Shown piece by piece: positions 44,098 to 64,000 of a stretch of DNA of 64,000 nucleotides (position 1 is the stretch's first letter; each line of letters starts with the position of its first letter). The notes beneath the pieces are model-generated. The model worked only from the letters and a program-made list of their open reading frames with translations. It ran no database searches and was not told the DNA's origin. This DNA comes from Pezicula radicicola (taxonomy: Eukaryota; Ascomycota; Leotiomycetes; Helotiales; Dermateaceae), in contig PDUO01000001.1 in NCBI GenBank assembly GCA_003008705.1, positions 1,295,694 through 1,359,693 of the forward strand, written 5' to 3'. Made by a program: the position numbers and the translations under genes.

Positions 44098-45954
44098 TCA
44101 TCTAACCAAAAGAGTACCAATTAGTGCTACAAGAGCCAAATTCCACCATACTATTCCAACCATCTCATTTTCCAGCCCGTAAGCAAAGCAATAGGAACCT
44201 AAGATGGGTCCCAAAGTTCGAGAGGCTGCAGAGACAGATTGTCCTATACTATTTACCGCTGCGAGTAGAGATGGGTGTGGAGACGATCTGTTCAAAAGTA
44301 TGATAGTCGCTGGCACCGAGACAATTCTGGCGATCGTATGTAGAAAGAGGATGAGTGTGATATATGCCCAAGTGGGTGGTCCCGGAGCTTGGCTTTCGGA
44401 TCCAGAAGTAGAGTGGATGAAAGATAATAATGGCGTCAAGGCGTAAGAAATTGGAAACAAGACGCTGAAAAGTCTGTAAGACATAACTGTCCCGAAACGC
44501 CTGTGGATTACCGGGTACAAGAATATCTGTAGAGGAATTGCAATAGCACCAACAAGTGCTGTGGCAACACCAGCTTGTCCTGCTGACATTCCGAGACCTC
44601 CAGTATCTTTATGAGGCGAGTTCTCGATGGTAGGAGCGCATAGGTATAGTACCCAAACAGTGGTGAAAGCCCTAGATTACTTTTACTATAGACGTTTAGG
44701 AAGATTGAAGGAAACTACATACCCCATGTGCAAGTCAAAAACAGCTTGCATAAGCAATGTATATATCACTTTTCTAGTCCAGAGATACTTCCAAGGAAGA
44801 CTTTTAGTTGATCCTGGGTTCAAAACGACTTCGTACTCCGCACCAGAATATTGGTTCCCCAGATAATCTGAGGAAAAATTTATCATTTCACTTGTTTGGT
44901 CAGAAGATACCGGCGAATACTTTTGACATCGTGTGGTAGTTCTGTAGCACATCACCCTGCGTAGGAACCTCCCCAAACGCAAGCCTGCATCATCTGCAGT
45001 CTCGCGGGTTGAAAGAGTCTACTACAGTATTAGGCCTATTGTATGAACAAGAAAGGGGTGGTTCTTACCTCTTTCAGTACCAAAAAAACACCAAGTGCAC
45101 ATACGAACAAAAAGAACGCACAAGTTAACGCTGGGAAAGCGTAAGGAAACCTTTGTCTCCACAGACTACCAATCCCCGGATGATTTGCAACTACATCTGA
45201 CAAAAGCCCACCAAGGACTAATTGAAAAGTCAGCTATGTCATTTACTCTATTTAGATAATAAAGCAAGGGCACAGATAACTTACTTGGGCCAAGGAGCGC
45301 AGCTAGATTAAAACTTGAAGGAAGGATTAGGAACGCAAGGGGCTGGTATCTTTGACAAGTTAGGATGATGTTGGCTATGAGAGAAGTGTTTACTCACGCC
45401 TTGTCTTTGACACTCTCAGCAATCATTGTCATGCTTCTCTTCTTAGTGTGATAACTTTAAATTATATTGTGGTATTCTTACCTGATACCTGCATTTCCAT
45501 TGATAACGCCGCCTAGAATTCGGAAGATGAGTGCCTCTAAAACCCTCTCAGAGAATCCAAGTCCCACGCATGAGAATGCTGTTCCCAATAGTCCAATTAA
45601 TAGAACTTTTTTCCTCCCGACCAAAGGCTCATCCGCAAATTTCCCCCACAGTATAGCCGTGAGGCCCTGAGCAGCAGTGAAGCTTCCAGAGAGGATTCCT
45701 GCCTGCCGAGATATCTCGGGGTCTGGAAGGGACGGATTGAATGACTTTAACTGGTAGAACATATACGATTGAAAAGATGTGATGTTCAAGAAATCAAAAA
45801 AACGAGTGAAGAACAGAATGGCAAGTTGGGGTTTTTCTGGAAGTGATCGCCAAGAAGTGGTCGCTTCTGAATCTTTTTCATCTTGGGCTTGGCTGATTCG
45901 AACAGGTCCTGTTCGCTTGATCGCGCCGTGCATATTCATCTGCCGTTCAATCAC
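44098..45954 (-). CDS. MFS transporter, ZIF-like/YCR023C type
   Basis: Twelve-helix major facilitator. Six exons, 45954-45482, 45433-45398, 45349-45285, 45217-45069, 45018-44723 and 44671-44098, give about 530 residues. The first half has LAILFFTRFFDFLNITSFQSYMF and motif A, GKFADEPLVGRKKVLLIGLLG, followed by EALIFRILGGVINGNAGIS and MTMIAESVKDKA. A hydrophilic central loop of about 80 residues precedes helix 7, and the second half ends with GPILGSYCFAYGLENEMVG. The first ATG is used; Met codons at 45939 and 45933 are alternatives. As the known dikaritin clusters include an MFS exporter, it may serve the RiPP pathway to the right, but this is inference from position; orthologues outside such clusters also exist. 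Confidence 0.85.
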
Positions 45955-46586
45955 TTTTCTATAAAATTTTCTTGAAGTGTATTGTACTTGTACAGTATAT
46001 ACTTTGCTGTGATGAATAAGTCAAAGTTGTGGCACAGAAAATCACTTAAACTACAAATGAGCTAGCGCTTAGTAGAAGCTGTGAAGAATGGGGTGCATGT
46101 AGTAGGATTATTATTCCGTGGTCCACCGAGATACGGCTTTCGCCATTTGATCCGTTGATTACCTTGACTGCATAGCATTAGTCTGTAAAATATACGATTA
46201 TGTCCGTTTTTGACAACCGGCACTTATGCATTGTTAACAGTAAGCTGCGTATGGTGGTTTCTAAAGACGCACCCTTTCACTGCTCCACTCTGCGAGTCTC
46301 GGTAAATAATCAATCTGACCATAAGCGACGCCGACGATTATTAACAGCTATGTGTTTTTATATAGCCAGTAATTTATAGCCTAGAATTTATGACATTGAA
46401 ATACGATCACGTGAAAACTCGGAGGTGGGTGAGGGCTTCTTCACAAAAGTTCAGCGGTTCAGTCTTACAGGCAGTTACAGTCACTCGGCGTCGATGTGGA
46501 CTTGAAGAAAGCTCACAAGTTTATAGATAAATTTATTGATATTCTCGCAAAACTCCTGCTATCAAGTCTTGAAATCTATTTCCTAG
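45955..46586. other. Intergenic, MFS promoter side
   Basis: AT-rich sequence between two reverse-strand genes. No gene or repeat recognised. Confidence 0.45.
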
Positions 46587-47384
46587 TTACAGATCGGAAT
46601 TTAGCCCAGCTACTGACTTCGTGTTAATCTCATCCAACGGTCTACATGCCGTCAAAGTTGTCGAACAATGATGGACATGGTAGTCTCCTTCGAAGCTCTT
46701 CTCAATAACTACTTTCCCGCTGACTCTAGCTCTTGACTCTTTCCTCCAGTAGAAGAGACAATGGTTTATATGCCATTCATGTGTTGTCCAAAACTCCGCC
46801 TCGGGTCCCTTTTTCTCGGCTAGCAAAGCCACTTCCTCAAGAGTGTATGATCGATTGCCATCTCTATCTGCGTAATAATCCCACCTTCCTCCCGGACCGG
46901 CAGAATCAAACTAATAAGTCAGAATCTCAAAACACTTAATTAAACAAAGAGGGGAGAGAAGGAGAGGAGAGGAGAATATCTTGAAGATTTTGATATGTTC
47001 AGCTCTGAATATTTATCTGCCAAAAGGAGTAAAACCACTCCGAAAACTGAGGCTCACCTCCGCAGATAGTTCATCGTCACGGCAAGCGGGAGGAAGCCAA
47101 GAGGTTGCCATGGCGTCGTATTTGCAGCCTTTCAAGATAGCTTCTGCAATGGAAGAGCCACAGTTGCAATCCACTTCCTTTGGCGGAAAGACATGATTCA
47201 ACATCGTCGAAAAAAGATTCAGGGTACCCCAGAGAGATAACAGAGCGACAAATGTCCAGAAGAGAATTGTGACAATGTGCCACTTTCTCCGGTGATTCTG
47301 AATCATGGGCTTCGAGTGGAAGTGTTCTTCGCTTGCCAGTAAGACCTCGTAACCCGTGGCTGCTCTGAGTGGGAGAGAGTTCAT
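46587..47384 (-). CDS. Fungal membrane protein with HxxHC-type tail, family unnamed
   Basis: Two exons, 47384-47058 and 46910-46587, give 216 residues. A single membrane helix (IVTILFWTFVALLSLWGTLNLF, about residues 36-57) precedes a Cys-rich stretch (CNCGSSIAEAILKGCKYDAMATSWLPPACRDDEL), then EEVALLAEKKG and a C-terminal domain with HEWHINHCLFYWRK and DYHVHHC. Proteins with this layout are common in filamentous ascomycetes; I recognise the pattern but no established function. The HxxHC arrangement resembles the metal-binding His/Cys motif of the UstYa family, and it sits beside four UstYa genes, so a related oxidase-like role is possible (inference). The 147-nt intron is long for this window. 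The gene is divergent from the UstYa homologue at 48187. Confidence 0.75.
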
Positions 47385-48186
47385 ATCGACGGAAGGCCTT
47401 GAGCATTGAAGGACTTAGTATGAAAACGTTTTCATTTGCTGAGTAGATGGGTGATTGATACCTGTAACTCATACTTAGATTTTTGACACCGCTTGATGTT
47501 CTCGAACCAAATACAATTTGAACTCCAAAGGAGAACTTTGGCAGTATTGGCGGTGGATTTGGAAAGTTTGAATTTTTACAAAGGGGCTTGGAAAGCTGGG
47601 AGATGTCGAATGCTGATAGTGACTGGGGTGTAAAAGTTCGGAGAGTCAAGTGGTCAGTGTCGGTTTGATATTCTTACCGTAAATACAGGTTTCTGTCTTT
47701 ACGGTAATCAAAGTTTGGTCCAAATCAAAATAATATATGCAAGTTTCCTAGTGCATAAGTATAGTCTAGATCATGACTCCATAACAAGGTGATCACCGAT
47801 ATCTCGTTTACCGAGGATTGTGCAATGCTATCTAAATGCACTAGTGCTGCACGGGGATAAAGTCCTGTTTTGGTCAAAAAAAGAACCTCAGATCAAATTC
47901 AGAAAAGGAATATTCCAAGGGTTCCACATATACGTGGATTACTGTACATGCCACATGCCGTATGCAATGAGATTATGCACATGTACAGCCTGCCGTAAAA
48001 CTGGGGAGAGATTGAAGCGACTGTGAGGCGCAGCTGGCAATTGTTTCTGGCCATCTGCAGCATTGGCCCGCATAGCAGTCTAACCACTTTTAGACATTGC
48101 TTCGAGCTTGGGGACGCCCTGACTTCGACCAATTCCACCTCATGCTTTGTGGAACTCAGTATTATCGACTCCAAGATTTTAGAAGA
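47385..48186. promoter_or_regulatory. Divergent promoter region in the RiPP-like cluster
   Basis: About 800 bp separate the HxxHC-tail membrane protein gene from the UstYa homologue 1 gene, transcribed outward. No specific binding site could be named. Confidence 0.45.
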
Positions 48187-49079
48187 ATGTCAAGCAGAAT
48201 GTCATACTCCTCTGAACCCTCAGAAGATGGCCATATGTTGCCAAAGACCGATAGAGAGACATTTACAATGTCTAAAAAGACACAAAGAGGGCATTCACTT
48301 AGACAACTCGCACTTGTTGCAGTTTTGAGTTCAGCCATTTCTGTTCTTGTAACTCTCTTTACACATCAAGTTGCACTTTCTCGAACTCCCCACAAGCCAA
48401 ATGAAACACTTCTGCCAGGACTAGCCATTCCTCAGTGTAAGTTGACATTTAAAGCTGTTGTAACTCTCGTTAACACTAATAGTGGGATCCTTTGAGTCTG
48501 TGTTCAAACCAGAAGGAATATACAGACAACCACCTTCCAATCGAAGCCGTGAAGCTTGGATGGGACTTTTTCCAAGTATGACTCTTTGCCACCTTATTAG
48601 ATAGGGCATGAATGACAAGTAGAAAAGAAGGAAAAGGATACATCTCAACCATCGAGCTCGAAAAAGTTGGCCCCATTCCACAATTCATCCAGGATATGCC
48701 AACAGACGGCTCTGGGCGCTTCTGCATTGCCGCCTTTCACCAGATGCATTGTCTGGTAAGTAAATGTATACTTTATCTGAATTTAACTGACAGGTTGTAG
48801 TATCTAATACAATCTGAATTCCACCAAGCCCTGGAAGGAAGCATTTCAAAACCAGGCCCCCACACACGACATTGTATAGATTACTTGCGTTCAAGTATTA
48901 TGTGCGCAGCAGATACAACATTAGAACCATTCACAAGTCGTCTTCAAGGATTTTCAGGGGGGGATTCTGTTGATGGATTCGACTCTCCCCATCAATGTCG
49001 TAGTTATGATCAGCTGTATGAATGGGCTGAGAGATTTAGATATAATGACAACACTGATGCTGATCACTTCAATGGATGA
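48187..49079 (+). CDS. UstYa/DUF3328 oxidase homologue 1
   Basis: Type II membrane protein of the family that performs oxidative cyclisation in dikaritin RiPP pathways. Four exons, 48187-48436, 48483-48575, 48628-48755 and 48801-49079, give 249 residues. A short polar N-terminus is followed by a membrane helix (LRQLALVAVLSSAISVLVTLF). Next come SFESVFKPEGIYRQPPS and the two hallmark His/Cys motifs: HQMHC at about 152-156 and HCIDYLR at about 181-187, with IMCAADTTLEPF and a closing QCRSYDQLYEWAE. The start at 48187 could instead be the ATG at 48199. It is the first of two tandem plus-strand members, followed after 504 bp by homologue 2. Confidence 0.88.
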
Positions 49080-49583
49080 GGTTCAGATAGTCTGGCTTTT
49101 GGTATAATATAATACGATTAGAAACACTACTTTTAAAAACGAGCTGTGTCACTCAATTTGACTGAATCATTAAAAAGTAGTTTGATGAAATGGAAACCTT
49201 TGCAAAAACAAATTTGGAATCGTTCTAAAATGACTAAGTTACTGATACCTATAACCGTTTTTCCACATAAGTCAATTATTTCCTGAAGTCCCGGAAACAC
49301 GTTTTCCTAAGAAAGATCCACATGAACCGCAAATAATTTGCTGAAAGCGTAGCGTTTCCATGCATTCCCTCCCATGCATGGCGTATGTCGTATCTCTTGC
49401 CATATCCGCCAATAAAATATTCACAGAACTTGCATGGTACGGACCTATCAGCAGTTATCTGACCTGGACTTGCATAAATTGCGTGGAAAGCCTCCAACTC
49501 TCTCTCCTCTCCCACATTTTCTTACACTTGACAAATCTCCTCCCTCTTCTTCGACAAGAGATATACCATAAACAATCTTCAAA
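49080..49583. other. Intergenic between UstYa homologues 1 and 2
   Basis: Contains the homologue 1 terminator and homologue 2 promoter. A short reverse open frame at 49276-49515 has no resemblance to known proteins. Confidence 0.45.
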
Positions 49584-50860
49584 ATGGTGTTCTCATCACT
49601 TCTATCTTGGAAGTCCAAGTATAATTCAGTAGCTGGCCCTGAATCTGATGACGACGACGACATCGAGGAGGCTACCAAGAAACTTGAATGGAAACAACGC
49701 CAGAGTCGGCTGGCTAGATTCAGGGCTCGAGCCTTTTCGGCTTTGAAGAGTGTCTTCTCTCCCAGTGCAGGGTTGCCTTGGGTCATCATTTTCATCTTAT
49801 CTGTTGCTCTCGCCTACGCTCATATCACCAGGCCGTTGGATTCGATACTTGTTTACAGTAAGTATTCCTCCTTTCGTGAAAATGGTTCCGAAGAACTAAC
49901 TGACTTTACCATTTCAGCTCCTGTAAACGTAAGTTCTTAGTTTTTTAGAGCGATATTTGCTTTTTAGTAGATGTGGGAGTTTTTCACGCATTCATGGCTG
50001 AATTTTTCACATAATTTTTCACATTCAAAGTTGAGAGTCTCAAAATATTTTTATATATAAAAAAAACCCCTCCTTTCTTCTCCGCTATATTTCTTGATTT
50101 TGGAAATACTGACTCCAAGGTTCTGACTTTTAGCATCTCATTGAATACGAAGAAAAAGTCTTCACCCATCAAACTGACACAAAATTCATCGGTCCTGTTG
50201 GTGATCCAAGAATTGACGCGGCATGGGAAGACTTGTACTCTGGTGAGTTACTCCTGGAGCTGAAAGAAATTCGTAGAGAGTTACTCTTCAAGTGACGATC
50301 ACTCTTACAAAGGAGAAACAAACACTGACATCGCCACAGCTGGACTCGCACTTGAATTAACAGAAAAAGAAGCAGCGCTGATTCCTAATAAAACTTGGCC
50401 CATTACCCAAATTCCAGGGAGATATTACGCAGCACTAAATGTGTTTCACAGTCTTCATTGCCTTGTAAGGGTTCTGAAACGAACCGGACAGGCTACAGAG
50501 CTAACGTAGCTATAGGACACCATCCGAAAAGTGCTTCACCCAGATATTTACGATGCAGCTGCACTCCGCTCTCTCGGACACATTCCTCATTGCTTCGATA
50601 TTCTTCGAGAATCAATAATGTGTACCGGCGATACATCGGTCAGTGTTTGGCAATGGATTCCAGGCGATAAGCAGGCCAAACAAATGACCAATACTCCTCA
50701 CACTTGCCGTAATTTTGACAAGATTAAAGATTGGGCAGAAGAACGAAGAATGAGTGTAGTTTTTGATGACACAACGGACCACACATCTAATCCTCTGGCT
50801 GGTGTATGGGATGAACCAGCAGACTCGCTGGCTAACCAGAACCAAGTATCAGATATTTGA
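49584..50860 (+). CDS. UstYa/DUF3328 oxidase homologue 2
   Basis: Five exons, 49584-49857, 49918-49928 (an 11-nt micro-exon encoding part of TPVN), 50134-50242, 50340-50464 and 50516-50860, give 287 residues. An acidic N-terminus (ESDDDDDIEEA) and a basic stretch precede the membrane helix (LPWVIIFILSVALAYAHI, about 69-86). The catalytic-type motifs follow: HSLHC at about 168-172 and HCFDILRESIMC in the last exon, with GDTSVSVWQWIP and a CRNFDKIKDWAEER close to the end. The order and spacing match UstYa proteins. The 205-nt intron between exons 2 and 3 includes an AT-rich stretch and is the longest in this gene. Function by family: copper- or iron-dependent C-H oxidation or ring closure on a secreted peptide; the exact reaction here is unknown. 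Confidence 0.88.
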
Positions 50861-51229
50861 AGCATTGAGTAGTGCAGGAGCGACTGTTGATTGTAGAGTG
50901 TTGCTGTCGAGTTTTGAATGTTGAATGTTGAAGGTTGAAGGAGGCGTTGAATTTCGTTCATTTGATATAGTTTCGTAGTTTCGTAGTTTGGTGGATGAGG
51001 CAAGATGATGATGATTGAAATGGGAGCGGTGTATTTTTTGTTGAATAGGCGTGGATAGAGACACATGCGTGCAGAAATTGGAAATTGAATTACTTAAGCT
51101 AGACCACTACCTTATCATCTCCTCCCTCTCCTCTCTTCTTCTCTCCCACTTCTTTCAAACCTAAACCTCTTTTCAATATTCGCTCATGTTTGAAATTCTG
51201 AATCTTGGACATCTATAACAGCACGCAAG
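50861..51229. other. Intergenic, UstYa 2 to glycosyltransferase-like gene
   Basis: About 370 bp holding a terminator and a promoter. CT-rich sequence (51116-51150) precedes the start of the next gene, common in fungal promoters. A short direct repeat (TTGAATGTTGAA) lies near 50920-50940. Confidence 0.5.
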
Positions 51230-52750
51230 ATGTCTGGTCAACAACTCAAATATGTTCGAGTAGCGATCATCGCTCTGGTTTTAATATTTCTGCTCCTGAC
51301 TTCGAGCTTGCTGATGGGACAAGTGGCACCAAACCTTCCATACCGATTCATGCCACTTGAAACTCTCAAGCCGCCCACGTCCACATTCAAACCATCTGGC
51401 GAGGCCCAAGAAGTCAGGAAAACCAAGGGCTTTAAGCTTATCGCCATGGTCTTTTGTGAATACCCCTCACTCAGTATTATGTACAATTTTGTTGATTTAT
51501 TTGTAGATGGGAGACGGCAATATGTTGAGATTCTCGACTGCTATTTGAAAAGAAATCTCGCTGAAAACGGTGGTCTCATTGATGAGGTTCATTTCATGGC
51601 AAACACGGCAAGGCGTGGAGACCTTGAATACTTGGATTATCTTCTCACCACCTCTAAATCTTATGTGAAGATTAAACCCAGGAAACTGAATCTTTTTGAT
51701 GAGATGTGGGGTGAGTTTTTCTAAGCAAGAGTATCCAATTTGGAACATTCGGGGTTGAGTGCTTCAAGATGCTTAGGATATTTTCCCCTCCCTTTCATTG
51801 TCAAACTGCTGACGGAGAGCCTCGATTCCAGCACATGCTACAGATAAAGATTCCATGTACATTAAGATTGACGACGATATCGTAAGATTACATTCTGACC
51901 CTTTAAGTTTCTTAAGCTTAACAGATCTTTTTAGGTATACATTCACGACGATGCCATACCTCGACTGGTCAACACTTTGATTCAGCACCCGGAAGCCCAC
52001 TTAGTTTCAGCAAATCTCATCAATAGCGCCCTTTCAAACTGGCAGCATTTCCATACAGATGCCATCTTGCCATATCTTCCAGAGCCAATACCACCAATGA
52101 GATCTCCCCATAGCAGGAATCTGACATCCTGGAGAGCTTCAGAACTTCCAGCTTACCCAACAGTTCCAGACGCCCCATGGTATTTCCCCGAAGTTCCTTT
52201 CGGTGGCCTCGATATTGGGGCACCTGGTGGTCCTCCTTTTCAAGGACACCGCTGGCTTCCGCTTCCGCCTGATGCCAAAAGCCTCCTCCAGACCCCTATC
52301 TTTGGTGCAGTATATGATGCTGAAATGGGAATCCATCATCAATGGGCCATTGCAGCCCAAGAACACTACAGCTTTTTGGAGAATTTAGAAAACAACCAGC
52401 TAGCTAAGTACTGGACTGGAAACCGTGAAGGGATCTGGAATCTCCAGTATCAGAGACACAATCTAAATTTTGTAGCAATTTGGGGGAGCAGTGTCGCCAA
52501 CGACTTACCTGGTCAGCAAGATGAGATAGATTTATTTGTTACAATCCCAAAAAGGATAGGAAAACGTGAGTTATTGATTTTTCTGAGTGTGGAAAGAAAA
52601 CTGTCTAACTTTGCTACAGCTGCAATTATTGATACCCATGCGATTGTCTCACATTTCTCATTTTGGCCACAAGCAAGAGAGCTTCTGACTACTGATTTAT
52701 TGGAACGCTATAAGATGTATGCTGAAGAGACAGTGTGCAAGAAAATATAG
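51230..52750 (+). CDS. Glycosyltransferase-like membrane protein
   Basis: Five exons, 51230-51455, 51507-51710, 51844-51881, 51935-52565 and 52620-52750, give about 409 residues. A type II signal anchor (RVAIIALVLIFLLLTSSLLMG, about 10-30) is followed by a lumenal domain containing YGRRQYVEILDCYLKRNL, then a DDD motif (YIKIDDDIVYIHDDAIPRL), which fits a metal-binding DxD of GT-A-fold transferases. Later parts carry a Pro-rich segment, HHQWAIAAQEHYSFLE and DEIDLFVTIPKRIGKPAIIDTHAIVSHFSFWPQ. I recognise the family layout but not a substrate. It sits between UstYa genes and the GNAT gene, so glycosylation of the RiPP product is an attractive but untested idea. Plain cell-wall or Golgi glycosylation is the alternative. 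Confidence 0.75.
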
Positions 52751-52859
52751 CCCCCAAAATAGCATAATTCATCAACTCATCTAAAACTCATGAACTTTCG
52801 TATTTCTGCATGCCATTGTGAGAAGACTTCACGCCATCCTTCGTTGAAGAATCTCTATC

Positions 52860-53803
52860 TCACTCAGGCTTCTTTGGGAGACGCTTCATGTAGCGGATGA
52901 GATAACGGCCCCAGATGGCACCTTCGCCCTCTTCCTTGGGAGGAGGAGCAGGTGCCCATTCATCGAGATCAAGGTCAAGAGTCCCAATGGTCGCGAATCC
53001 GGCCTTTTCGTAAGCCTTGTAGGCGGGTACTGAACTGTGAACCCAGGCAAATACCTGGAATCTGTCTGCTACGTCGGTTCCCCACTTCAATAGAGCAGCT
53101 CCAACTCCTTGCTTCTGAAATTTAGGATCCACTGAGAAGGAAACAACCTAAAGGCACAATCTCGGAGTTAGCTTTTGCAAAGCAAGAACAAGGGAGAAGA
53201 GGGAAGTGTTCCGAATTAGGTGAGATACCCTCCCATTCCGCATTTGTCAAGGGATGCATTAACTCTGAGAAGTTGAGAACTCACAAACATGCACTTGGTA
53301 CCTTCGGGCATCAACTTCTTCATCCATTGAGTCATGTCTTCGTCTTCCATGGCATTAAGACGCTTGATAATGTCGTCATCGTCATCCGCAGGCTTCTCTA
53401 CTGTAGCATTATCGTTTGTCTTCTGACTAGCTGCAGCGTCGGCTTTTGCTTTTTCGTCCGCTATTGCTTTCTCATCCTTCCAGACCGGCTTGTCGGGTGG
53501 GTCAAACTCCTGCTCTGTGGTAGACAGCCTGGGGGCTTCACCGGGTTCGAATCCACGAAAACCCCATGAACTCCATCCCATGATTTCTCCGGTCTCGTTG
53601 TGGACAGCTTTCATGCAGACGCACTTCTCGGAGTTGATAAGATTTGCTAGGCCTGACCTGCTGATTTCTTCCATGTTGTAAGGGGTTTTGCCTAGCCCCT
53701 TCATCACAGTGTGTCGATCGACGAGAAAGGCATCCGCACTGATCTTGCTGACGACAGGAATATCGGCATGGAGAAGGGGCTGCAATGTGAAATGCTGTGC
53801 CAT
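52860..53803 (-). CDS. GNAT-family N-acetyltransferase
   Basis: Two exons, 53803-53285 and 53147-52860, give 268 residues. The N-terminal part (MAQHFTLQPLLHADIPVVSKI) and SGLANLINSEKCVCMKAV lead into beta-strands with GWSSWGFRGF. A charged insert follows (DEKAKADAAASQKTN... DDDDDIIKRL), then the acetyl-CoA-binding loop in exon 2, VDPKFQKQGVGAALLKWG (Q/RxxGxG/A), and YEKAGFATIGTLD. The 137-nt intron shares the segment CTCGGAGTTAGCTTTTGC with introner-like introns, although the match includes the branch-site consensus. GNAT enzymes transfer acetyl groups to amines; the substrate is unknown. The gene converges on the glycosyltransferase-like gene, with only 109 bp between stop codons. Confidence 0.85.
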
Positions 53804-54318
53804 CTTGCGACAGAAGCTGAGATGTGAAGAAGTGGGATAGCAGATGCCTATTTGGGTAAATGAGAAGAAGGTAGACAATTCGTGGTCGATGATGAATGAA
53901 CTTGAAGTTGTGTTGTCTCGGAGATGATTGGTTTTGAGGATGGTGGAATTGGGCTTGATATCTTTTGTAGTCGAGTATTTATTTACTAGTAGTACCCCGG
54001 ATAAACGAGATGCATGCTATACGGCCAGAGGCAAAGTGCATTTATCCATGGAAGGTAGTACAAATGCAGATTGCCCTGCAGATATAACTGCCAATGATTA
54101 GGCTTTTACCACTAGACCGGGAATAAGCGAGTGTAGCGAAGATGAGTAATGCGGTGAGAAGTGCCGTGCTGTTCGACGAGATAAGAGTTACTACTGCCGT
54201 ATAAATATTCTAAACGTTAAATATTAGAATATACGGTATAGTTATCAGTAGACCCTTCGTACAGTAAGCTGCATGTGAGGCTGCTGCATAAGGCAGAGTG
54301 CAGGTAGCCATGCGCCAA

Positions 54319-54380
54319 TGTACCCAGAAGAGATAAGGCTGCTGCATGCGACGGCACGAAGCGAGGAGCCCCTGGGTACA
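54319..54380. repeat. Short inverted repeat, TGTACCCAG / CTGGGTACA
   Basis: Nine-base perfect inverted repeats bound a 62-bp segment (54319-54327 and 54372-54380). The block GGCTGCTGCAT also occurs twice nearby (about 54281 and 54337). The origin is unclear; a small transposon remnant is possible. Confidence 0.45.
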
Positions 54381-55110
54381 CCATCACTCCCTACCTTATG
54401 CGACCCATAGAGTATCAGTAGAAAAGAAATCGTAGATCTAGCAAGCTCAAAAATCTAGGCTGATAGATTCAGATGCACTTTATGATTTATTTGCCGAGCA
54501 TATTTCCCGTAGGCCTTAGAGAAAGAAGTACTTTTGCGGCACAGCAACCGTCATTTACGGAAGGTGGTGAAGCGGTCTGTTGTATGTTTGGCAATAGTAT
54601 GCAACTATGGGCCGGTAGCTGCAGAATTTTTTGCCCATGTATGTCATGCCTTATCATCGGAGTAGAGAAGTAATCGTCATCCGCCAAATCTGCAGTGTTA
54701 ACGAGGGCAACTTGGTCAATACATACAGCAAGCATTCGAAGCATTGCCAATGCGGCCAAGCTTTCGAAGATTTGTGTGCCATACAATTCTATTCATCTTT
54801 CTCTGTCAAAATCCCTGTCTTCACTCTGCAATTCAATTGTCAAGTACAGTGCCATCAAGACAAGCGATTGCCGAGCACCCTTTCCATCAACACAAGAATG
54901 CGATTTTCGTTATCACAGCACATCTGATTAGTACTGAGAGTGAGGCAGGTCCGAACATGTTTCCTATCAGTAAGTCACAAAACATTGGATAACTGAAAAC
55001 TACCAAACTTTCCTCTCATGGTTGGATTGTGGTGGGAAAGGGGTTAAGCGAGGATTTACCGAGTACCATTACCGAGTACTATTAAAGAGAATGATAATTA
55101 TTTACTTTAC

Positions 55111-55260
55111 TACAGGCCCAAATGAACCCTATTTCCGTCTGAGTTATGGCTATGTAAAATAAAGGGTCATTAGCCAATCACTTGACTAGAAGTCCCCCTT
55201 TTTTATACCTATAACTGATTAGTTACGCACAGACAGAAATAGGGTTTATTTGGGCCTGTA
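55111..55260. mobile_element. MITE, Tc1/mariner-like (TA target site)
   Basis: A 146-bp element (55113-55258) with 29-bp terminal inverted repeats starting CAGGCCCAAAT. The two ends differ at only 2 of 29 positions, both transitions, and the element is flanked by TA on each side (55111-55112 and 55259-55260). It has no coding capacity, is AT-rich inside, and fits a non-autonomous mariner-type element. Confidence 0.85.
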
Positions 55261-56329
55261 CAGGAGTAGACATTGTGAAGTTGCACGAACGCCACGCAAG
55301 TGCATAGCGCTTGCTGTGCCGTAATACAATTCCTTGCTATTCCTTTGCCTGTCATTGCGACTTTTGGTGTGAATCCGGTCTTGTGTCGCAAAAACTCCAA
55401 AAGCCGATGAGCTACCGGTCTGACTACAATAGCTCGCTTATCCCTGTTACACTAAAAGTCGCTCCCGCCGACGGGCAAAGGGATATTCTCCGAGGCCACA
55501 GTGCGCTGTTTAGAAGTACCGAGATAGCATAACTGTGATAACTATTAATCTACGCCGCGCCCAGACTTCTGAAAAGCATTATTAACGGACTTACCCGTAC
55601 AGCACATGTCTAGAATACTACATCATGTTGTGCTACTGTATGTGCTAGGTGCTAAGGTTACATTGCAGAGGGAATGAAGGATAAACTCAAGATTGCTATA
55701 CTTAGGAAAGGTCCAGTAAAAGGCTTGTTTTGGTATAGATTGGCATTGATATACCGTCAGGGTATTCTGAAAACCCAATGGTACAACCCTAGAAAGTCAA
55801 GAAGGTGGGCGGAGTCGTGTGGCTCCCTTGTAACCCATTTTCTCCCCAGATCATCCAATAAGCCACCCTTCCTTGAGCGTACACTACCAGGTTGAATTAA
55901 GGTCAAAGAGACTAGGCCATTGTGGGTTTAGGCTACGCGAGCTGCCAAGACATTTCAACCTCACTTCATCTTTTCGTACAGAACACCGCATCAAGATCAA
56001 ATGAATGTTCAATTGAAAGCGGAGGAATCTCCTCAGAACTATGCAGTCATCTTCATATCCATCTCGACCTCGACCTCGACCTCCACCTCCAAAAGTTTGA
56101 CGCTAACTCGGACTTGGCTTAGGTACAGTACAGGAGTTGTGATTTTCTCAAGTCAAACTACCCGTATACGAGCTTACGAAATTCCACTGCAAAAAGCCCC
56201 ACGACACAGAAAAAGAAAAGTTCACCGTCAAGTATTGTACGGCCCCCTATATTTTTCCACCCACTACCTTGAAATTATAAGCTTACCGACGGTTTGGGGA
56301 GAGGAGGCGACGTGGTGAAGGCTAGGCCT

Positions 56330-56875
56330 TTACGCGGCTGCGTCTACCTCCTCAGTGACAGCGTGAGCAACAGCAACAGGTGTGCGTTTCTCGACAGCAT
56401 CTGGGTCTCCAGCAAGGGAAACACCAGGGTCTATAAAATATTAGAATACCTAGGTATGTGAGATAAATGGAGGGAGGGCAAATACAGGAGTTAGTGCGTT
56501 TCTCGACAGTATCTGGGTCTCCAGCAAGGGAAACACCAGGGTCTATAAAATATTAGAATACCTAGGTATATGAGATAAAGGAATTGTGCGTAAATACAGG
56601 AGTTGGTGCGCTTCTCAACGGCATCTGGGTCCCCAGCAAGGGAAACACCGGGGTCTATAAAATATTAGAACACCTAGCTATGTGAGATAAAGGGAGGGAG
56701 GGTAAATACAGGAGTTGGTGCGCTTCTCGACAGCATCTGGGTCTCCAGCAAGAGAAACACCTGGGTAGCTGTTGGTGCGCGCAACGACCATTGCCATTCC
56801 ATCATGAGCAACCGGTGCTGCCGTTGTGAATGCCAACATCGCTACAAAGAGCAGTGCTTTGGTTATTTGGACCAT
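56330..56875 (-). CDS. Kex2-processed repeat precursor peptide, candidate dikaritin RiPP precursor
   Basis: Four exons, 56875-56710, 56654-56598, 56542-56486 and 56430-56330, give 126 residues. The N-terminus is a secretory signal peptide (KALLFVAMLAFTTAAP). After a short spacer ending VVAR, four near-identical 19-residue units follow, each starting TNSYPGVSL and ending in EKR, i.e. each bounded by a Kex2 site. A 17-residue tail (TPVAVAHAVTEEV...) closes the protein. In unit 3 the unit end reads DPDTVEKR instead of DPDAVEKR. Each unit has one Tyr, the residue used for ring closure in the known dikaritins. The three introns, each exactly 55 nt, split the Tyr codon (T|AC) of units 2-4; unit 1 has the codon intact. 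The neighbours include four UstYa proteins and an MFS transporter. Product unknown; toxic or signalling activity cannot be judged. Confidence 0.82.
56386..56766 (-). repeat. Tandem 112-bp exon+intron repeats in the precursor gene
   Basis: A 57-nt coding piece plus a 55-nt intron form a unit of exactly 112 bp (56709-56598, 56597-56486, then 56485 onward), repeated with few changes in exon and intron alike. The first coding unit (about 56773-56710) lacks the intron. The segment TCTATAAAATATTAGAA (plus strand) marks each intron end. Confidence 0.92.
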
Positions 56876-58026
56876 GTTCGCTGAGAATGATGTGAAGAGT
56901 CGGTGGTGTGGGCAATTGCTCAGATTCTTGAAGATAATCAAGTCAAGAGTTTCGAAGTCGAATAATTGAAAGGATAAAAAGACCGGGGATTTCTCCCCTT
57001 TTACAGTCAGAAAGAAAAATATATCAATGACGTTTAGTTTTGGAACTTTTATCATTCACAAATTACTTTGCACTTTCTTGCCCTTAGGCAAAATACCCAT
57101 TCTCTTACCCTGCAAGAGTCTCGCCGTGCTCAGGAGTGTCTATAGTACATGATTTTACAATCTGTATGCAATATCTAGTTCATATGCAGTAAGCAAGACG
57201 TCTGCTGCAGGATGCTAAGACTTTATGCAAGCATGTTACTAAGTAGGTCCTTCTGCTCCATTTCTTACCCTATCGCAGCAACCTACCTATACGAGTAAGT
57301 CCTATACTGCACCTTGAGCTGTCCAGTTCTCGGAGCAGGTTCGGGAAGGTCTCTAACTAGAGTATTCGAAGAGTTGAATGCCTTAGAATCCTTGAAACGT
57401 TCCATTTGCCTCCCCTCCTTCTTGATTTGGAAATAATGGCTCCAACTTTTTGATTACAAACTGATCGGCAGCATGCCGTGTCTGCCAACAGTGCAGCGTA
57501 TCTGCATTCATCTACATTAGTATTGATGCGGCCAAGATAAGTAGAAACTCTCTCAGCAGAAGGCTCCACATTCTGCCAACCCTGAATAAACCCCGAATGT
57601 AACATGTCTTATCTTTCCGCTCCGTCAAGATACTGCAGATGAATAGGTCGCGTGAACATGGCTGGACTATTCTTTCTCAAAAGACACTAGGGCCAAGGTC
57701 CAATGAGTTGTCTTCCGCCCGTTTTTTATACATGCATTTTTATATGATAACATTCATATTGTCAACTGCCGCAATTTGATGGATGGATGCCTTAATAGAG
57801 TTGGTTTATGCGGCTATGTCGTTAGCTTCGGTCAGACGACGAAACAAACTCCGTGTTGTCAAAGGTGTTGCCACAAATGATTGCTGAGAAACCATCTTCC
57901 CCACCAAATAATGTAAGAGGTGCTAGTCCTCCCAACTTCTTTCTCGCCCACTTCATGTTTACACTCAATTCCTCTAACCTCTTCATCATACTCTCGTCAT
58001 TCTTTGATTAAGCATAGTCATTCACA
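56876..58026. promoter_or_regulatory. Divergent region, precursor gene / UstYa homologue 3
   Basis: About 1.15 kb between outward-facing start codons of the precursor gene and UstYa homologue 3, so both promoters must lie here. A reverse open frame at 57357-57605 has no family features. No binding site for a pathway regulator could be named. Confidence 0.5.
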
Positions 58027-59354
58027 ATGGAAGAAGCATATTTGGATGACCCAGCCTCTTACGCCCGTGTCTCTCTCGAGAAACGTGATGAAGACACTAT
58101 CTCAGAGTCTGATGCTGGCAACAGCCCCTATCATAGCCTACTCGGAACAGGAAAACAATACAAAGGCCTGTTCGAACGACAGCTTAAGAAACTTCAACGT
58201 CGATTTACCAAGAGAGTAATAATTTGGGCATTCCTGATCATAATCTTCCTAAGCCATATTATCTTCTTTTCATTGGGCTTGAAGTTTAGGCCAAACCTCG
58301 ATCGGGTAAGACTCAATCTTTCGAAGTTCCTTTCCACCTCACTTGCTCGAGAATTTGGGAGAGTATCTCATGCAATCTCGAACATTCAGAATGTCTCCAG
58401 TTCACCTGAGAAAATTTCCTTCTCTGAGCAACCCTCATTCCCTTCTTGATCTCAAAATACTGACCGAAAAACCTAGACATGCATGGAACACACTTCTACC
58501 TACTGTAAGTACTAGTCTATTCGCTAGAGAAAATCAAGCTGATCCCAAAACCAGCTCCTGTGCTGAAGGAGATCAGTTCGAATTACAAGAAGGTCAAATT
58601 CAACGGGACCCTTGGCTTCAAGTCAGAATATTCTGGAGATCCGAGCCCGGAAGTTGACGCTGCATGGGCCAAGTGGGCTTACGGTAAGATGATTAAACTA
58701 CAGCATTGATGTTTTCTAACGCGAGAAACTAGTCAAATACGCCAGTATTCCGGAAGATGAGTTTATGAAGCTTGACGGAGCAGATCCAGATGCTTCAAGA
58801 CTTACTCCCGAGTATGGAGGGGGGTACATCGGGTTCTTAGAAATCAGTCACCAATTGCATGTAGGTATTACTTTGGATGTGCAATATCTTGTTTTCTGAC
58901 AACTCTTAGTGCCTTAATCTTCTGAGAAAGGGTATTCACAAGGATTACTATATGCAACCGGAACACATCCCCGAAGAATTTACAGATAGTCCATGGACTG
59001 TTAAGCTTCACCTAAGTAAATGTTTTGTTCCTATACTTTCACTTTCTTGACTGATTTCAAATTTAGCGCATTGCATCGAGATTCTACGTCAGAACATCAG
59101 TAAGTCATTTCCCCCCACAAATTCAACATTGTCCAAACTCACGATTTCTAGTGTGTAACGCAGATGTTGGTATCATTACCCATCAGTGGATAGTGCAAAG
59201 TCCAGATCCATTCGCAAATTTCAATAACTGGCACATGTGTCGCGATTTGGAATCTGTCGAGAATTGGATCCATAGTCACGAAATCCCTACGACTCCAGAT
59301 CACAGCGATTTGCCTATTCCTCTTGGTTCCAAAATCTACCCAACTCCTCCTTAA
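58027..59354 (+). CDS. UstYa/DUF3328 oxidase homologue 3
   Basis: Seven exons, 58027-58305, 58477-58504, 58555-58683, 58733-58860, 58910-59015, 59067-59099 and 59152-59354, give 301 residues. A polar N-terminus precedes the membrane helix (VIIWAFLIIIFLSHIIFFSLGL, about 66-87). TYSPVLKEISSNYKKVKF and DAAWAKWAY, the family's conserved middle, follow. The first motif HQLHC (about 185-189) is split by an intron; the second, HCIEILRQNIMC, starts near 225. The C-terminus ends with CRDLESVENWIHSHEI. This gene stands divergent to the precursor gene and is therefore the likeliest member to act on its product, though all four are candidates. It has the most introns of the four homologues. Confidence 0.88.
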
Positions 59355-59891
59355 GAGGCGAATTGGAAACCTGAGTAGATAGTTCTCAAGTAGATTATGA
59401 TTGTGATTAGGAATTTTTATGGTGGAGATTTCACAGCTTTCTCAAATTACTTGTGAAATTCCCGTTATTTTGGCAGAAGCTCTTTCAGGAACGTTGGGAG
59501 GCATCTTTGAAATGGAGGTACAATTTTCCTTAATGACTTAGAATGAATCAATGAGCTTCGGCGTCTTTTCTGTCTTCGAATACCTTCAGTTCAGTCAATG
59601 TCTTAATGCTCCACAGATGAGCCTTCCATGAGTGTCCCATGAGATATCAGACATTCACGGGGACCATATCTGTGAGCTGAGCTGAGCAGAGCAATTTCCC
59701 CCGACTTTGCATCTGCAATACAAACAATCTATTCCTGAAATCCCAGTCTCGTCCGTCCAATAGTGCAGTCAGCTCTTGACCCCTCTTTTCACAGCCAACA
59801 AGTATAAATATGGCTATCCTCCCCCTCCCTCCATCCCAGATTTCCCCGTCGTATTTTCGCAAACTTTCTCAACCCAAGGTCTTTTTTCAAA
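59355..59891. promoter_or_regulatory. Promoter region of UstYa homologue 4 with TATA-like box
   Basis: The stretch between the stop of homologue 3 and the start of homologue 4 has a TATA-like sequence (GTATAAATA at 59802-59810) about 82 bp before the ATG, followed by CT-rich sequence. Confidence 0.55.
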
Positions 59892-61085
59892 ATGGAGAAA
59901 AAAAAGCAAAACACACGTCCTGATGCAATACCAGAAGAAGAAGAAGAAGAGTACTTCGACGATATCCCCACTGGAGAAACCGACGAATTTCTTCTGAAAA
60001 ACAACCCAAAAAACATATCTGCGTCCCGTCAAACATCCATCATTTCTACGCGTGCCAAGATTCTTCATCTACTTTTTTTCTCCGTGTCACTAGCATTTTT
60101 CATTGCCGCTTTGAAAGTTGGATACAGGCCCATCAAATGTGATACAGTAAAGAGCTCTTACAGAGAAACTGCTTTCACACCTGAATTCGCTCTCAGCGAG
60201 GCTGACAGGGCCAAAAACTCCAATATTGAAGCTGCCCCAGTTGAACACAACGACACCAGTATGTTTTCACTAAACTAAACAAATATTATAAATTTAGGTT
60301 CATCGTTTGGCTAATAAAATGATGTTGATAGCATGCCATGATCCATACGTTTGGTGTAGCTATGAGACGAAGAGATTTACGGATGATGTGGATTCTCCGT
60401 ACAGAGTAGCTGGGCCTGAGGCTGAAGAGATATGGGGTATTGACACCAATGGTAAGTTAAAAAAAAATCAAATCCAGATCCAGTAACAAGAAGAAAGAAG
60501 GCTAACACGAACATGAATACCAACAGCGCAACCTTTTGGCATTTCTCAACAAGTGCTTGACGAGATAGACGGTCCGGTTGATGCTGCGACCATGCCTGAA
60601 CGAATGTCAGTCCTCAATTCCCTCCTTGATTTAGAGATACTGACTCTGAGATTCTGAACTTTAGGGGAGGAGGATATGTAGCTAGTCTCGCGGTTCACCA
60701 CCAATTGCACTGCGTTCGGATTCTATGGCAGTACTCTAAATTCGAATACTACAAGGACGTGGAACCGATCTTTTTTGAATCTATGGATAGTATCCACCAG
60801 CATCTAGGTAACCTAACCATCTATATATGACTAACTGTCCGAGAAACTTGTTACTGACTTTTTTTCTCCGTAGACCATTGCGCTGATATTCTACGTCAAG
60901 TCTTGATGTGCCACGGTGATACTAGCCTTATCACTTATACATGGTGGAAGGGCATCAAGGATGGCCCTGGGGCTGTCCTGAACGCAACGATGAATTTGCC
61001 TCGTCAATGCAGAAATTATGATGAGATTATGAGGTGGTCAAAGCACCATGAGTTTAAGACGATTCATTTGGGTGATGGAATGTAG
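59892..61085 (+). CDS. UstYa/DUF3328 oxidase homologue 4
   Basis: Five exons, 59892-60258, 60332-60451, 60527-60605, 60665-60807 and 60874-61085, give 306 residues. The N-terminus is charged with an acidic run (EEEEEEYFDD, from a GAA/GAG tract near 59936-59952). The membrane helix follows (ILHLLFFSVSLAFFIAAL, about 57-74), then GPEAEEIWGID, and the motif HHQLHC at about 200-205. The second motif DHCADILRQVLMC starts near 237, followed by GDTSLITYTWWKG and QCRNYDEIMRW. Upstream of the first motif it carries a segment HDPYVWCSYETKRF not seen in the other three homologues, so it may recognise a different substrate. It is the outermost member of the cluster on the right. Confidence 0.88.
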
Positions 61086-61566: not shown

Positions 61567-64000
61567 CTAGCACAAATATGCAACAATATCCTTATCGTCC
61601 TGCGTTTCGAAGCGTTCGAGTTTGTGCTTCAACCGACCTCCTGCCATGGTAGGTTGTGAGCCAGGCACGTCATCTGAGGACTTGAGTATACGTCTCCAAC
61701 TCATGTGGATCGCGGGATTATACCTGATTCCTATAGGTAGGAGTGCGTGTTTTCGGGGCCTGACATGACGAGCTAAATTGGCATGTCCATGAAGAGAAAA
61801 TGCTAGGGTATCATTATGCGTCGAGGTGAGGATCACTGTTGCGTCCTCTGCTTCAGAGCTGCTTAGTTTGTAAGGCGGGAAATAGTAAATCGTTCTGCTA
61901 GTGGAAGAGCTAGGTAGATAGATTTCATTTCCTGAGACTTCAACTTCGTTTTCGAAGGATGCTGAACTCTGTAGTGGCACCTTGAAAATTTTTAATGTTG
62001 GAAAATCTTGACTTGGATCATTATGTGTGATGTAGAGCCATTCCTCGGTCCAAGTAAGCGTATATGGTAGTCTGGAGATTGGTAGCGTCTCTGCGGAACC
62101 TAGATTCACTTGAGTCCGGAATATCAGATGCGGTGCACAGCGTGCAGTTTTGCTAGTTGAGAGCTGGTGCGTTGATATTTGCATCGACAGACTTAATGGC
62201 TTATCTTTCGGGACTTCGTCTTTTGGTTCGTGCAAATATTTTCGGGGGAGGTCATTTTTCCGTGCTTCCAAGGCTGCTATATGAAGGAAGTGACCGCAGG
62301 AGGAGAAGCGGCATTTTATAGAGATAAAACATGCTTTACGAGAAGAGCGATTAAGTCTTCTCGAGAAATATGTTTTACCCGAGAAGTCAACGAAGACTAA
62401 CTCTCCACCTCCCAACGGCCAAACTAATAACGGTGCTGATGGGTGAAAAACTGGAGGAGAGTTATATAGGTTATGAGACCGTTCTTGGGAGTAATGAAAA
62501 ATCTGGATAGGCGGGTCTGAGAGGGTATCGTATATTCGCACACCTTCTCTGTTGTACGAACTCGACTGCGATTTTGCCTTGACCTTTCCACTCATTAGGT
62601 TATCGAGCCTTTCACCTGCTCGGTTGGATGTTTCACTGCCTTCAAATTCGGAGTCTTCATTTGAACTCTGCTCAGAACTCCATTCGGTTTGATCGCTAAG
62701 AAGAGCACTATTATTCTCGCTATCGCTGTTGCTTTCTTCACTTTCCTTGTAGTATTGAACCGTTCTGGGCAAGTTTCGGCCACGGTAATCATCGTGAAGC
62801 TCTCTAACTTCAGAAGGCTCTTCAAAAAGTCTCCCATCAGTTGGATAATCAAGCCCAAGTGCTGCGCGTTGTTCCAGAGGTTCAACAAAGTTGGAACTGT
62901 ATGGATCCTCAGAGTCGCTCGAATCTTCAGATTCCGAACCGAAATTTTCCAAATCTCCATTTGAATCAGAACTAGTGCTATCATTCCACTCTTCGGGTTC
63001 GCTGGTGTCATCGGATGCGAGGGACGTCGGTGCCTTACTCTCCCATTCATATGTAGAATTATCGTCATCACTGATCTCGATTGCGGGCGATGCCACATAT
63101 GGATAATCGGAGCCGCTTGAGCTCGTACTTCCTGTGCGAAAAGGAGATAAACGGTGCGCCATAGGTTCATCAGCTGATTGTAAATTTGGATTATCGTCAT
63201 CCGGGTTCCAGTTCGAATGTGCAAAATCTGTAAGTGGCTCAGTTCGTTGCATATCACCGGCCCAGCCTTCGTTATCTAAAAACGACTCTATGAATTCGGA
63301 GAATGCGTTAAAGATATTTCCGTCACTTGCGGACCTCTCGGGGGTTTCCTGTAGGAGATTCCGCCGCCGCGTAATGGCAAGATAGCGATCATTGCTTGCA
63401 AGCTCCTCAGCATATTCCTTCTCTCCAGTTTTAATGGGAATTACGGCATAGATATAACTGTCCTCTCTAAGGAAAAGTTGTGATCCAACCCTTAGGTATT
63501 GGAGATTTGTGGAGGTATCTATTAGTGCGGGAATCCCAATGTTCCCACTAGGTCGGCAGGGGTCAGCGTAAAGTTCCATCTGACATTGTTCGATGTCTAT
63601 TAGCAGTGTTTGAGAGCACCGAATTCTCGGCTGTGAGGCCTCTAAAGACCATGTTTGACAAGATAAACTCAGTTCGTGTAACCCAGAAGCAGGGTTGAAA
63701 GAACTGTCAGCAAGGACTTATTAGCTACCTAGAGCGTGAATCTTGGGAGGTTTGTAATGTAGGTACTCACATCGTACTTTTAGACATCATTCTCAAAAGC
63801 TCACTTCCATCCGCTGAAATGGCGTCTTTATACATCGACCACGTCTGATCCTCATCTGCTGCGTCTCTGGCAAATATGAAACTATGATATCGACATTTTA
63901 GACCGCTAAGAAAATTCCAGGAACCCAACGCACCCAAGAAGCACCGATCGATTTCTCCTAAGCATCTGCTTTCGAGCAAAGAACCCCATTCGCTGACAAA
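61567..64000 (-). CDS. Large acidic low-complexity protein, N-terminus outside window
   Basis: Two exons are visible, 64000-63771 (open to the window edge) and 63703-61567, giving at least 788 residues with the start outside. The upstream part has hydrophobic and Cys/Trp residues (GALGSWNFLSGLKCRYHSF, SGLHELSLSCQTWSLE). A long acidic and serine-rich middle follows (SDSEDPYSSNF, SSDSNGDLENFGSESE, EWSSEQSSNEDSEF). The C-terminal third (LVWPLGGGELVFVDFSGKTYFSRRLNR, LTWTEEWLYITHNDP, IYYFPPYKLSSSEAED) has beta-strand character reminiscent of a propeller, but no repeat could be confirmed. I do not recognise the family. The exon join (AT|T) was chosen because it keeps the frame. Confidence 0.7.

Follow-up and report, generated by a model that had tools for sequence, protein, structure and literature searches.

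What does a fungus make from a secreted, tyrosine-containing repeat protein whose gene stands among several genes of the UstYa (DUF3328) family? The question is raised by a locus of Pezicula radicicola in the 64,000-nucleotide stretch of contig PDUO01000001.1 that runs from position 1,295,694 to 1,359,693 of the forward strand (assembly GCA_003008705.1). This whole stretch is called the window, and coordinates refer to it unless a contig is named. Judged from the DNA, the locus is very probably a gene cluster of the dikaritin type, which would make a ribosomally synthesized and post-translationally modified peptide (RiPP). It resembles the known dikaritin systems (ustiloxins, phomopsins, and asperipin-2a) in having a secreted multi-core precursor, a KR dipeptide between cores, a tyrosine in the core, and adjoining UstYa/DUF3328 genes. 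A preliminary description had proposed this class, a secreted Kex2-type repeat precursor with UstYa proteins. The proposal is now supported by Pfam, by two fungal homologues of the precursor, and by an apparent adjacency of precursor and oxidase genes in Periconia. The genes of that account stand; introns in three of the four repeat units and a fifth gene with a pair of HxxHC motifs had been overlooked.

In a survey of Kex2-processed repeat proteins (KEPs), DUF3328 genes are reported near 1,758 of 7,878 KEPs (22%), at a mean distance of 3.09 genes, and tyrosine is commoner in the repeats of KEPs with such a gene nearby (65.6% vs. 38.2%; PMC7329392). The locus belongs to this kind of KEP. Nine dikaritin clusters have been described in the apple scab fungus (PMC9632046). 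Hence, as a KEP with DUF3328 neighbours, the cluster type is known; what appears to be new is the core, TNSYPGV, and the predicted splitting of its repeats by introns.

The precursor gene and its core

The precursor gene has the following parts.

56330-56875, minus: precursor gene, 4 exons, 126 amino acids; encodes a hydrophobic secretion signal, a pro-region, four units TNSYPGVSLAGDPD[A/T]VEKR, and a C-terminal tail
56816-56875, minus: predicted signal peptide MVQITKALLFVAMLAFTTAA; hydropathy 2.97, putative cleavage point
56720-56776, minus: core unit 1, intron-free, with an intact TAC; preceded by AR instead of KR
56608-56719, minus: core unit 2 including intron 1 (spliced model)
56655-56709, minus: predicted intron 1, 55 nt, GTATTT...TATAG, splitting the Tyr codon T/AC
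56496-56607, minus: core unit 3 including intron 2 (spliced model)
56543-56597, minus: predicted intron 2, 55 nt, at the equivalent place in the unit
56384-56495, minus: core unit 4 including intron 3 (spliced model)
56431-56485, minus: predicted intron 3, 55 nt, at the equivalent place in the unit

The repeat precursor with a signal peptide and Kex2 sites that had been placed at 56330-56875 is borne out. Tandem Repeats Finder reports a repeat at 56382-56766 (period 112, 3.4 copies, 89% matches, score 630), each of the four 19-residue units ends in KR, and the N-terminus is hydrophobic, with a best nine-residue Kyte-Doolittle mean of 2.97 at residues 8-16. On this hydropathy measure, used in place of a signal-peptide predictor, the protein is probably secreted. 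In the spliced model, exons 56875-56710, 56654-56598, 56542-56486, and 56430-56330 of the minus strand are joined across three 55-nt GT-AG introns. The resulting protein reads MVQITKALLFVAMLAFTTAAPVAHDGMAMVVAR, then four units TNSYPGVSLAGDPDAVEKR (Thr replaces Ala in unit 3), then a short tail.

Tyrosine is present in all four units, as well as in all units of two homologous precursors described below (four and three units). Judged by what is conserved, in three species only, modification probably concerns TNSYPGV and a few further residues, and the acidic GDPDAVE stretch would act as a follower. As had been claimed, the core contains tyrosine and is unfamiliar. We take the dikaritin cores to be YAIG/YVIG, YVIPID/YVIPFD, and FYYTGY, none of which is matched by TNSYPGV. 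We did not find the TNSYPGV core in print: in the searchable literature, TNSYP occurs only in work on fish-skin peptides, and SYPGV, IYPGV, and YVGGID occur nowhere.

Predicted introns inside the core units

Units 2, 3, and 4 each consist of 57 nt of coding sequence interrupted, within the Tyr codon T/AC, by a predicted 55-nt intron (GTATTT...CTAAT...TATAG). This layout, with one intron per core, is the most unusual feature of the locus. Among the four units eight codons vary, seven of them by synonymous changes only; since this fits selection on the spliced frame, that frame is probably real. The introns differ from one another at 10 of 55 columns, while their first six and last 16 bases and the CTAAT are invariant. 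Their size fits the neighbourhood, the median being 59 nt over 21 hand-modelled introns of neighbouring genes.

Read without splicing, the frame reaches a stop after one full unit plus TNSCIYPPSLYLT. By translation, a retained intron 1 would give 65 amino acids, a retained intron 2 109, and a retained intron 3, through a frame shift, 137. Exon skipping would keep the frame and leave three or two cores. We considered that the introns might be copies of a genome-wide element and rejected this, the 112-bp unit having matched only this gene. Rfam has no match at its gathering threshold in the window.

Because an intron cuts three of the four repeats inside the Tyr codon, gene finders may overlook such precursors. 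If the locus is read correctly, core repeats can be split by introns, and surveys of annotated proteins would thereby undercount such peptides. Two KEP surveys do not use the word intron in their main text (in that of PMC7329392 the strings splic and exon are absent as well), and the word occurs once, about basidiomycetes, in a review. No title in the searchable literature is recognizably on this subject; most subscription papers lie outside that search, and a report elsewhere is possible.

The UstYa oxidases

The four UstYa genes, listed here with the stretch between U3 and the precursor, had all been predicted with the right start coordinates, and their full models match PF11807.

58027-59354, plus: U3, UstYa/DUF3328 oxidase; HQLHC and HLTHC; 6 exons, 297 amino acids; PF11807, E 1.7e-51, 175.7 bits
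56876-58026, strand not applicable: intergenic stretch of 1151 bp between the divergent precursor and U3; possible shared promoter
59892-61085, plus: U4, UstYa; HQLHC and HLDHC; 5 exons, 306 amino acids; PF11807, E 2.2e-34, 119.7 bits
48187-49079, plus: U1, UstYa; HQMHC and HTRHC; 4 exons, 249 amino acids; PF11807, E 1e-26, 94.6 bits
49584-50860, plus: U2, UstYa; HSLHC and HIPHC; 5 exons, 287 amino acids; PF11807, E 2.8e-42, 145.5 bits

All four exceed the curated PF11807 cut-off of 25 bits, and the double HxxHC motif is intact in each. In CctR, a characterized DUF3328 enzyme, two coppers per monomer are bound at the double HxxHC, and mutants of the motif pair are inactive (PMC12435403). U3 stands head-to-head with the precursor; the least certain splice site of its model is the acceptor of the first intron. 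Its best-scoring paralogue in the same genome is 36% identical. Among solved structures no match was found for U3, and the UstYa profile gave two chance-level matches only. In all four gene models an intron lies inside an HxxHC motif or one codon past it.

Relatives in other fungi and known systems

A search of 5.8 billion proteins with the precursor (7,996 scored candidates) gave three matches at E 10 or better. The best, DM02DRAFT_625319 of Periconia macrospinosa, a pleosporalean root endophyte (PMC5910433), has E 1.7e-25, 54% identity, and the units TNIYPGVKYPGDADDIAKR and TNSYPGVRYPGDTDDITKR. A Rhypophila protein follows (E 1.7e-5), with units such as TNSYPKYGKAEDYEAVNSNEKR. The third match (E 1.8) looks like chance and was set aside. 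KR followed by TN(S/I)YP is common to the precursors of the three species, and the sequence beyond diverges. Unit 1 is the exception, following AR in Pezicula and ERTP in Periconia.

With U3, 70 matches at E 1e-30 or better were obtained. One is DM02DRAFT_625320 of Periconia, 70% identical over 65% of U3. Since the two Periconia proteins share the species, bear consecutive numbers, and lie on contigs that both measure 279,770 bases, we take their genes to be neighbours; the precursor-U3 pair thus appears to be conserved. A precursor orthologue lacking a UstYa neighbour, which would have spoken against a cluster, was not seen in Periconia, the one species where the comparison could be made. The Periconia locus differs in a second tyrosine in its unit, TN[SI]YPGV[KR]YPGD, and in the defective first motif, HHMHG, of its annotated UstYa. 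In two annotated relatives, this one and another (P0011), the first HxxHC motif is damaged or missing, apparently through mis-set splice sites.

Relatives of U3 with at least 55% identity were found in Penicillium vulpinum, Aspergillus alliaceus, A. tanneri, two Xylographa species, Kalmusia (a match over half the length), and one metagenomic contig. The precursor search found no precursor for the named species. The gene may be there unannotated, with introns, or it may be truly absent. We predict a precursor with TN(S/I)YPG exons, possibly unannotated through its introns, beside the U3-like genes of P. vulpinum, A. alliaceus, A. tanneri, and Xylographa. If the reading is right, a RiPP core family TN(S/I)YP is added, present in three fungal genomes and with an adjoining oxidase in two.

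Compared with the dikaritins, the locus has introns inside units 2-4 and is without a recognized tyrosinase, methyltransferase, or peptidase gene. As reported, the epichloecyclins (gigA, Epichloe) are similar in having kexin-processed repeats, one DUF3328 gene, a small cluster, and a tyrosine that lies within the unit and not at its start; however, their cluster has a kexB gene, which is lacking here, and their repeats are imperfect and 27 residues long (PMC9233826, PMC7317419).

U5, a divergent double-HxxHC protein

A fifth gene lies to the left of U1.

46587-47384, minus: U5, divergent UstYa-like protein with one transmembrane-like stretch; HINHC and HVHHC; 2 exons, 216 amino acids; no Pfam match itself

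U5 matches no Pfam family and so does not reach the PF11807 cut-off. As relatives, eleven single open frames were collected at five places, each of them close to UstYa genes, and two were left out, one of 127 amino acids without the motif and one with a single HxxHC. Both motifs (six motif residues) are invariant in U5 and the nine relatives aligned with it, partly by choice because frames without a complete pair had been dropped. PF11807 is matched weakly by three of the ten aligned proteins (best E 5.4e-5), U5 not being shown among them, and a profile comparison with hhalign links the family to UstYa with 83% probability and E 9e-6, over 44 motif columns only. U5 is likely to be a distant UstYa relative.

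The genome (61 Mb, 152 contigs) holds 62 PF11807 matches grouped into 35 places and 24 matches to the U5 family at 15 places. Of the 14 U5-family places outside the window, seven have a UstYa match no more than 10 kb away, as does about 1.2% of the genome; the rough binomial value of 1e-10 treats loci as independent, and the 10-kb limit was chosen after the co-location had been seen. The members of the family are membrane proteins with a double HxxHC that mostly fall short of Pfam's UstYa model and are enriched near UstYa genes. These are possible unrecognized oxidases and a lead to further ones. NCBIfam gave nothing above its cut-off for U5, the precursor, or the glycosyltransferase-like protein described below.

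Proposed pathway and alternatives

In the pathway that we propose, the precursor mRNA would be spliced at the three short introns of units 2-4, restoring each Tyr codon; retention, by translation, would truncate or shift the frame. The protein would enter the secretory pathway, where a fungal kexin would cut after each KR, yielding peptides that start with TNSYPGV and from which KR would be trimmed. We infer kexin cutting because KR and TN(S/I)YP are kept in two other fungi and because kexin P-domain (PF01483) matches occur elsewhere in the genome (two, on contigs C25 and C22; contig C1 has none). UstYa-type copper oxidases would then oxidize the peptide, the Tyr side chain most likely being joined to another core residue, as family chemistry suggests. 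U3 is favoured above all since its relative appears to adjoin the precursor in Periconia; U4, U1, U2, and the divergent U5 may carry out further oxidations or serve a pathway of their own. The modified peptide would finally be exported.

Several observations weigh against a dikaritin-type cluster. Among the subset of frames between 43 and 64 kb that was run against Pfam, no peptidase, kexin, methyltransferase, or tyrosinase was recognized. Unit 1 is preceded by AR and not KR. The Periconia and Rhypophila precursor models look incomplete at the C-terminus, the Periconia adjacency is deduced from numbering and contig size, and the cross-species comparison covered U3, the one oxidase for which linkage to a precursor elsewhere was shown. 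The donor GTATTT is found in none of the 21 neighbouring modelled introns and may mean weak splicing. This donor, with the complete and intron-free unit 1, would suit a gene whose introns are not spliced, the product being a short one-core protein and units 2-4 remnants. We regard that as very unlikely: seven of the eight variable codons change only synonymously, units 2-4 all keep 57 coding and 55 intron bases, the splice ends and CTAAT are constant while the intron middle varies, and the Periconia protein has several units. A decayed or silent locus is similarly improbable, given that the models of the precursor, the four UstYa genes, and U5 are open throughout and that codon changes in the units are mostly synonymous.

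The most serious alternative concerns the extent of the pathway, which might comprise the precursor and U3, perhaps with U4, while U1, U2, and U5 serve another UstYa-dependent pathway or are regulated separately. We consider this quite possible, if somewhat less likely than not. The precursor and U3 stand head-to-head, and conservation is hinted at for no other pair; U1, U2, and U5 lie more than 5 kb from the precursor; and the glycosyltransferase-like and GNAT genes, which show no sign of belonging, stand between the two blocks. Because the genome has about 35 UstYa places, unrelated UstYa genes could also be neighbours by chance. However, four UstYa genes and a U5-family gene within 15 kb are a dense group, and clusters with several DUF3328 genes are known, five being reported for the phomopsins (PMC7329392). 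More radically, the repeat protein could be a secreted KEP of the signalling or pheromone type, releasing linear peptides without modification, and the UstYa genes could act elsewhere. KEPs include mating factors, and 6,120 of the 7,878 surveyed have no DUF3328 neighbour; yet almost all annotated pheromone KEPs are reported to be among these (PMC7329392), whereas this precursor shares a tyrosine in every unit with its relatives from two other species and has an apparent UstYa neighbour in Periconia. This alternative is therefore unlikely.

Other repeat precursors in the genome

The search for KR-flanked and tandem repeats covered 22 of the 34 UstYa places outside the window, in 25 stretches of 5-10 kb each. 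Four further repeat proteins of precursor type were found, on contigs C17 (stretch L036), C65 at 798 kb (L024), C1 at 2.24 Mb (L022), and C86 (L037). The C17 precursor (L036:3426-2839, i.e. C17:28425-27838, minus strand) is a second precursor of dikaritin type, with the core DYVGGID and no detectable sequence similarity to that of the window. It reads MLFWKCLLVVALCGAVTAKPVFSKR, then TTTGQTVE, then DYVGGIDVDKR-GTAGQTVE repeated. Introns of 51, 51, 59, and 60 nt lie ahead of its four DYVGG, one codon before the Tyr; three internal exons measure 57 nt, and an extra 49-nt intron comes after the signal peptide. It lies near UstYa matches at C17:26583 and C17:32091 and a U5-family match at C17:37838.

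An intron-per-repeat layout is thus seen in two precursors of this genome, in the window and on C17. Introns in the repeats occur in two of the five repeat proteins; the other three run on intron-free where read. It is a tentative and rather doubtful idea that these two represent a hidden class of fungal RiPP precursors whose core repeats are each built of exon and intron. The intron would lie in the Tyr codon or beside it, and every internal exon would be one complete unit in frame (57 nt in both precursors here). If true, such precursors would escape mining based on open reading frames or on KEPs, and splicing, through in-frame skipping or through truncating or frame-shifting retention, could set the number of cores per mRNA. 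With only two cases, the closeness of the introns to Tyr is not claimed as a signal.

On C86 (L037:6399-6764, plus), units KR-SQDSTAAYPVIEEDIVESK form intron-free repeats, with several U5-family matches and a UstYa match about 4 kb off. On C1 at 2.24 Mb (L022:8996-10000, plus), a long repeat KREAHHTASQIAAKKAG, with a di-histidine for Tyr, lies near UstYa matches and extends past the stretch. On C65 at 798 kb (L024:2999-3138, plus), a short repeat KREAEPEKAYDYAEYSVEG is directly upstream of a UstYa match. Further tandem arrays lie at L018, L039, and L041, and no precursor was recognized in them.

Neighbouring genes and borders

Three further genes lie among or beside the oxidases.

44098-45939, minus: MFS transporter, gene model incomplete; N-terminal part matches MFS_1, E 7.3e-11; membership unproven
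51230-52750, plus: glycosyltransferase-like protein with a DDD motif, 431 amino acids; no Pfam match; membership by position only
52860-53803, minus: GNAT acetyltransferase, 268 amino acids; Pfam E 2.9e-7; membership unproven

The MFS and GNAT identities first given are upheld by these matches, the C-terminal MFS piece (44098-44676) having no Pfam match. That of the glycosyltransferase-like protein found no support in Pfam; among its listed homologues, a few carry the name glycosyltransferase or hexosyltransferase. Their membership in the cluster, also proposed earlier, gained nothing beyond position from the genome's own UstYa loci or from a comparison with Xylographa, and the three may be bystanders or optional.

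In the genome, the GNAT and MFS proteins have eight and nine non-self matches, none within 50 kb of a UstYa match (the MFS query was the N-terminal piece of 166 amino acids, partly spliced by eye). An acetyltransferase is described in a UstY cluster of lichens (PMC12048977), so the GNAT gene stays a possible member. The three genomic matches of the glycosyltransferase-like gene are its own exons, and the gene has no counterpart among solved structures. It is widespread in fungi, with 315 relatives at E 1e-10 or better, the best 120 of which were listed. Xylographa soralifera, Trichoglossum hirsutum, Exophiala spinifera, and Phyllosticta citricarpa appear in the listed matches of both this protein and U3, in all four on contigs of different listed length. 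In X. soralifera the U3 relative (58%) and the glycosyltransferase-like protein lie on contigs of 217,444 and 84,178 bases, among the matches listed. The difference is weak evidence: a close relative of U3 is found in X. soralifera alone, the Trichoglossum contigs are short, and the Phyllosticta entries pool several contigs. The exon-only matches and the differing Xylographa contigs give this gene no support as a cluster member.

On the left flank, ten open frames were compared with Pfam and eight matched, among them ECM29 and other housekeeping-type genes, at which the natural left boundary lies, near 43.1 kb. Pfam recognized nothing in ten further small open frames of the region, nor in an open frame of 716 amino acids at 61567-63717 (minus), on the right edge of the cluster. 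Two unrelated tandem arrays occur elsewhere in the window, at 3309-3491 (73 bp x 2.5) and 5513-5775 (104 bp x 2.5).

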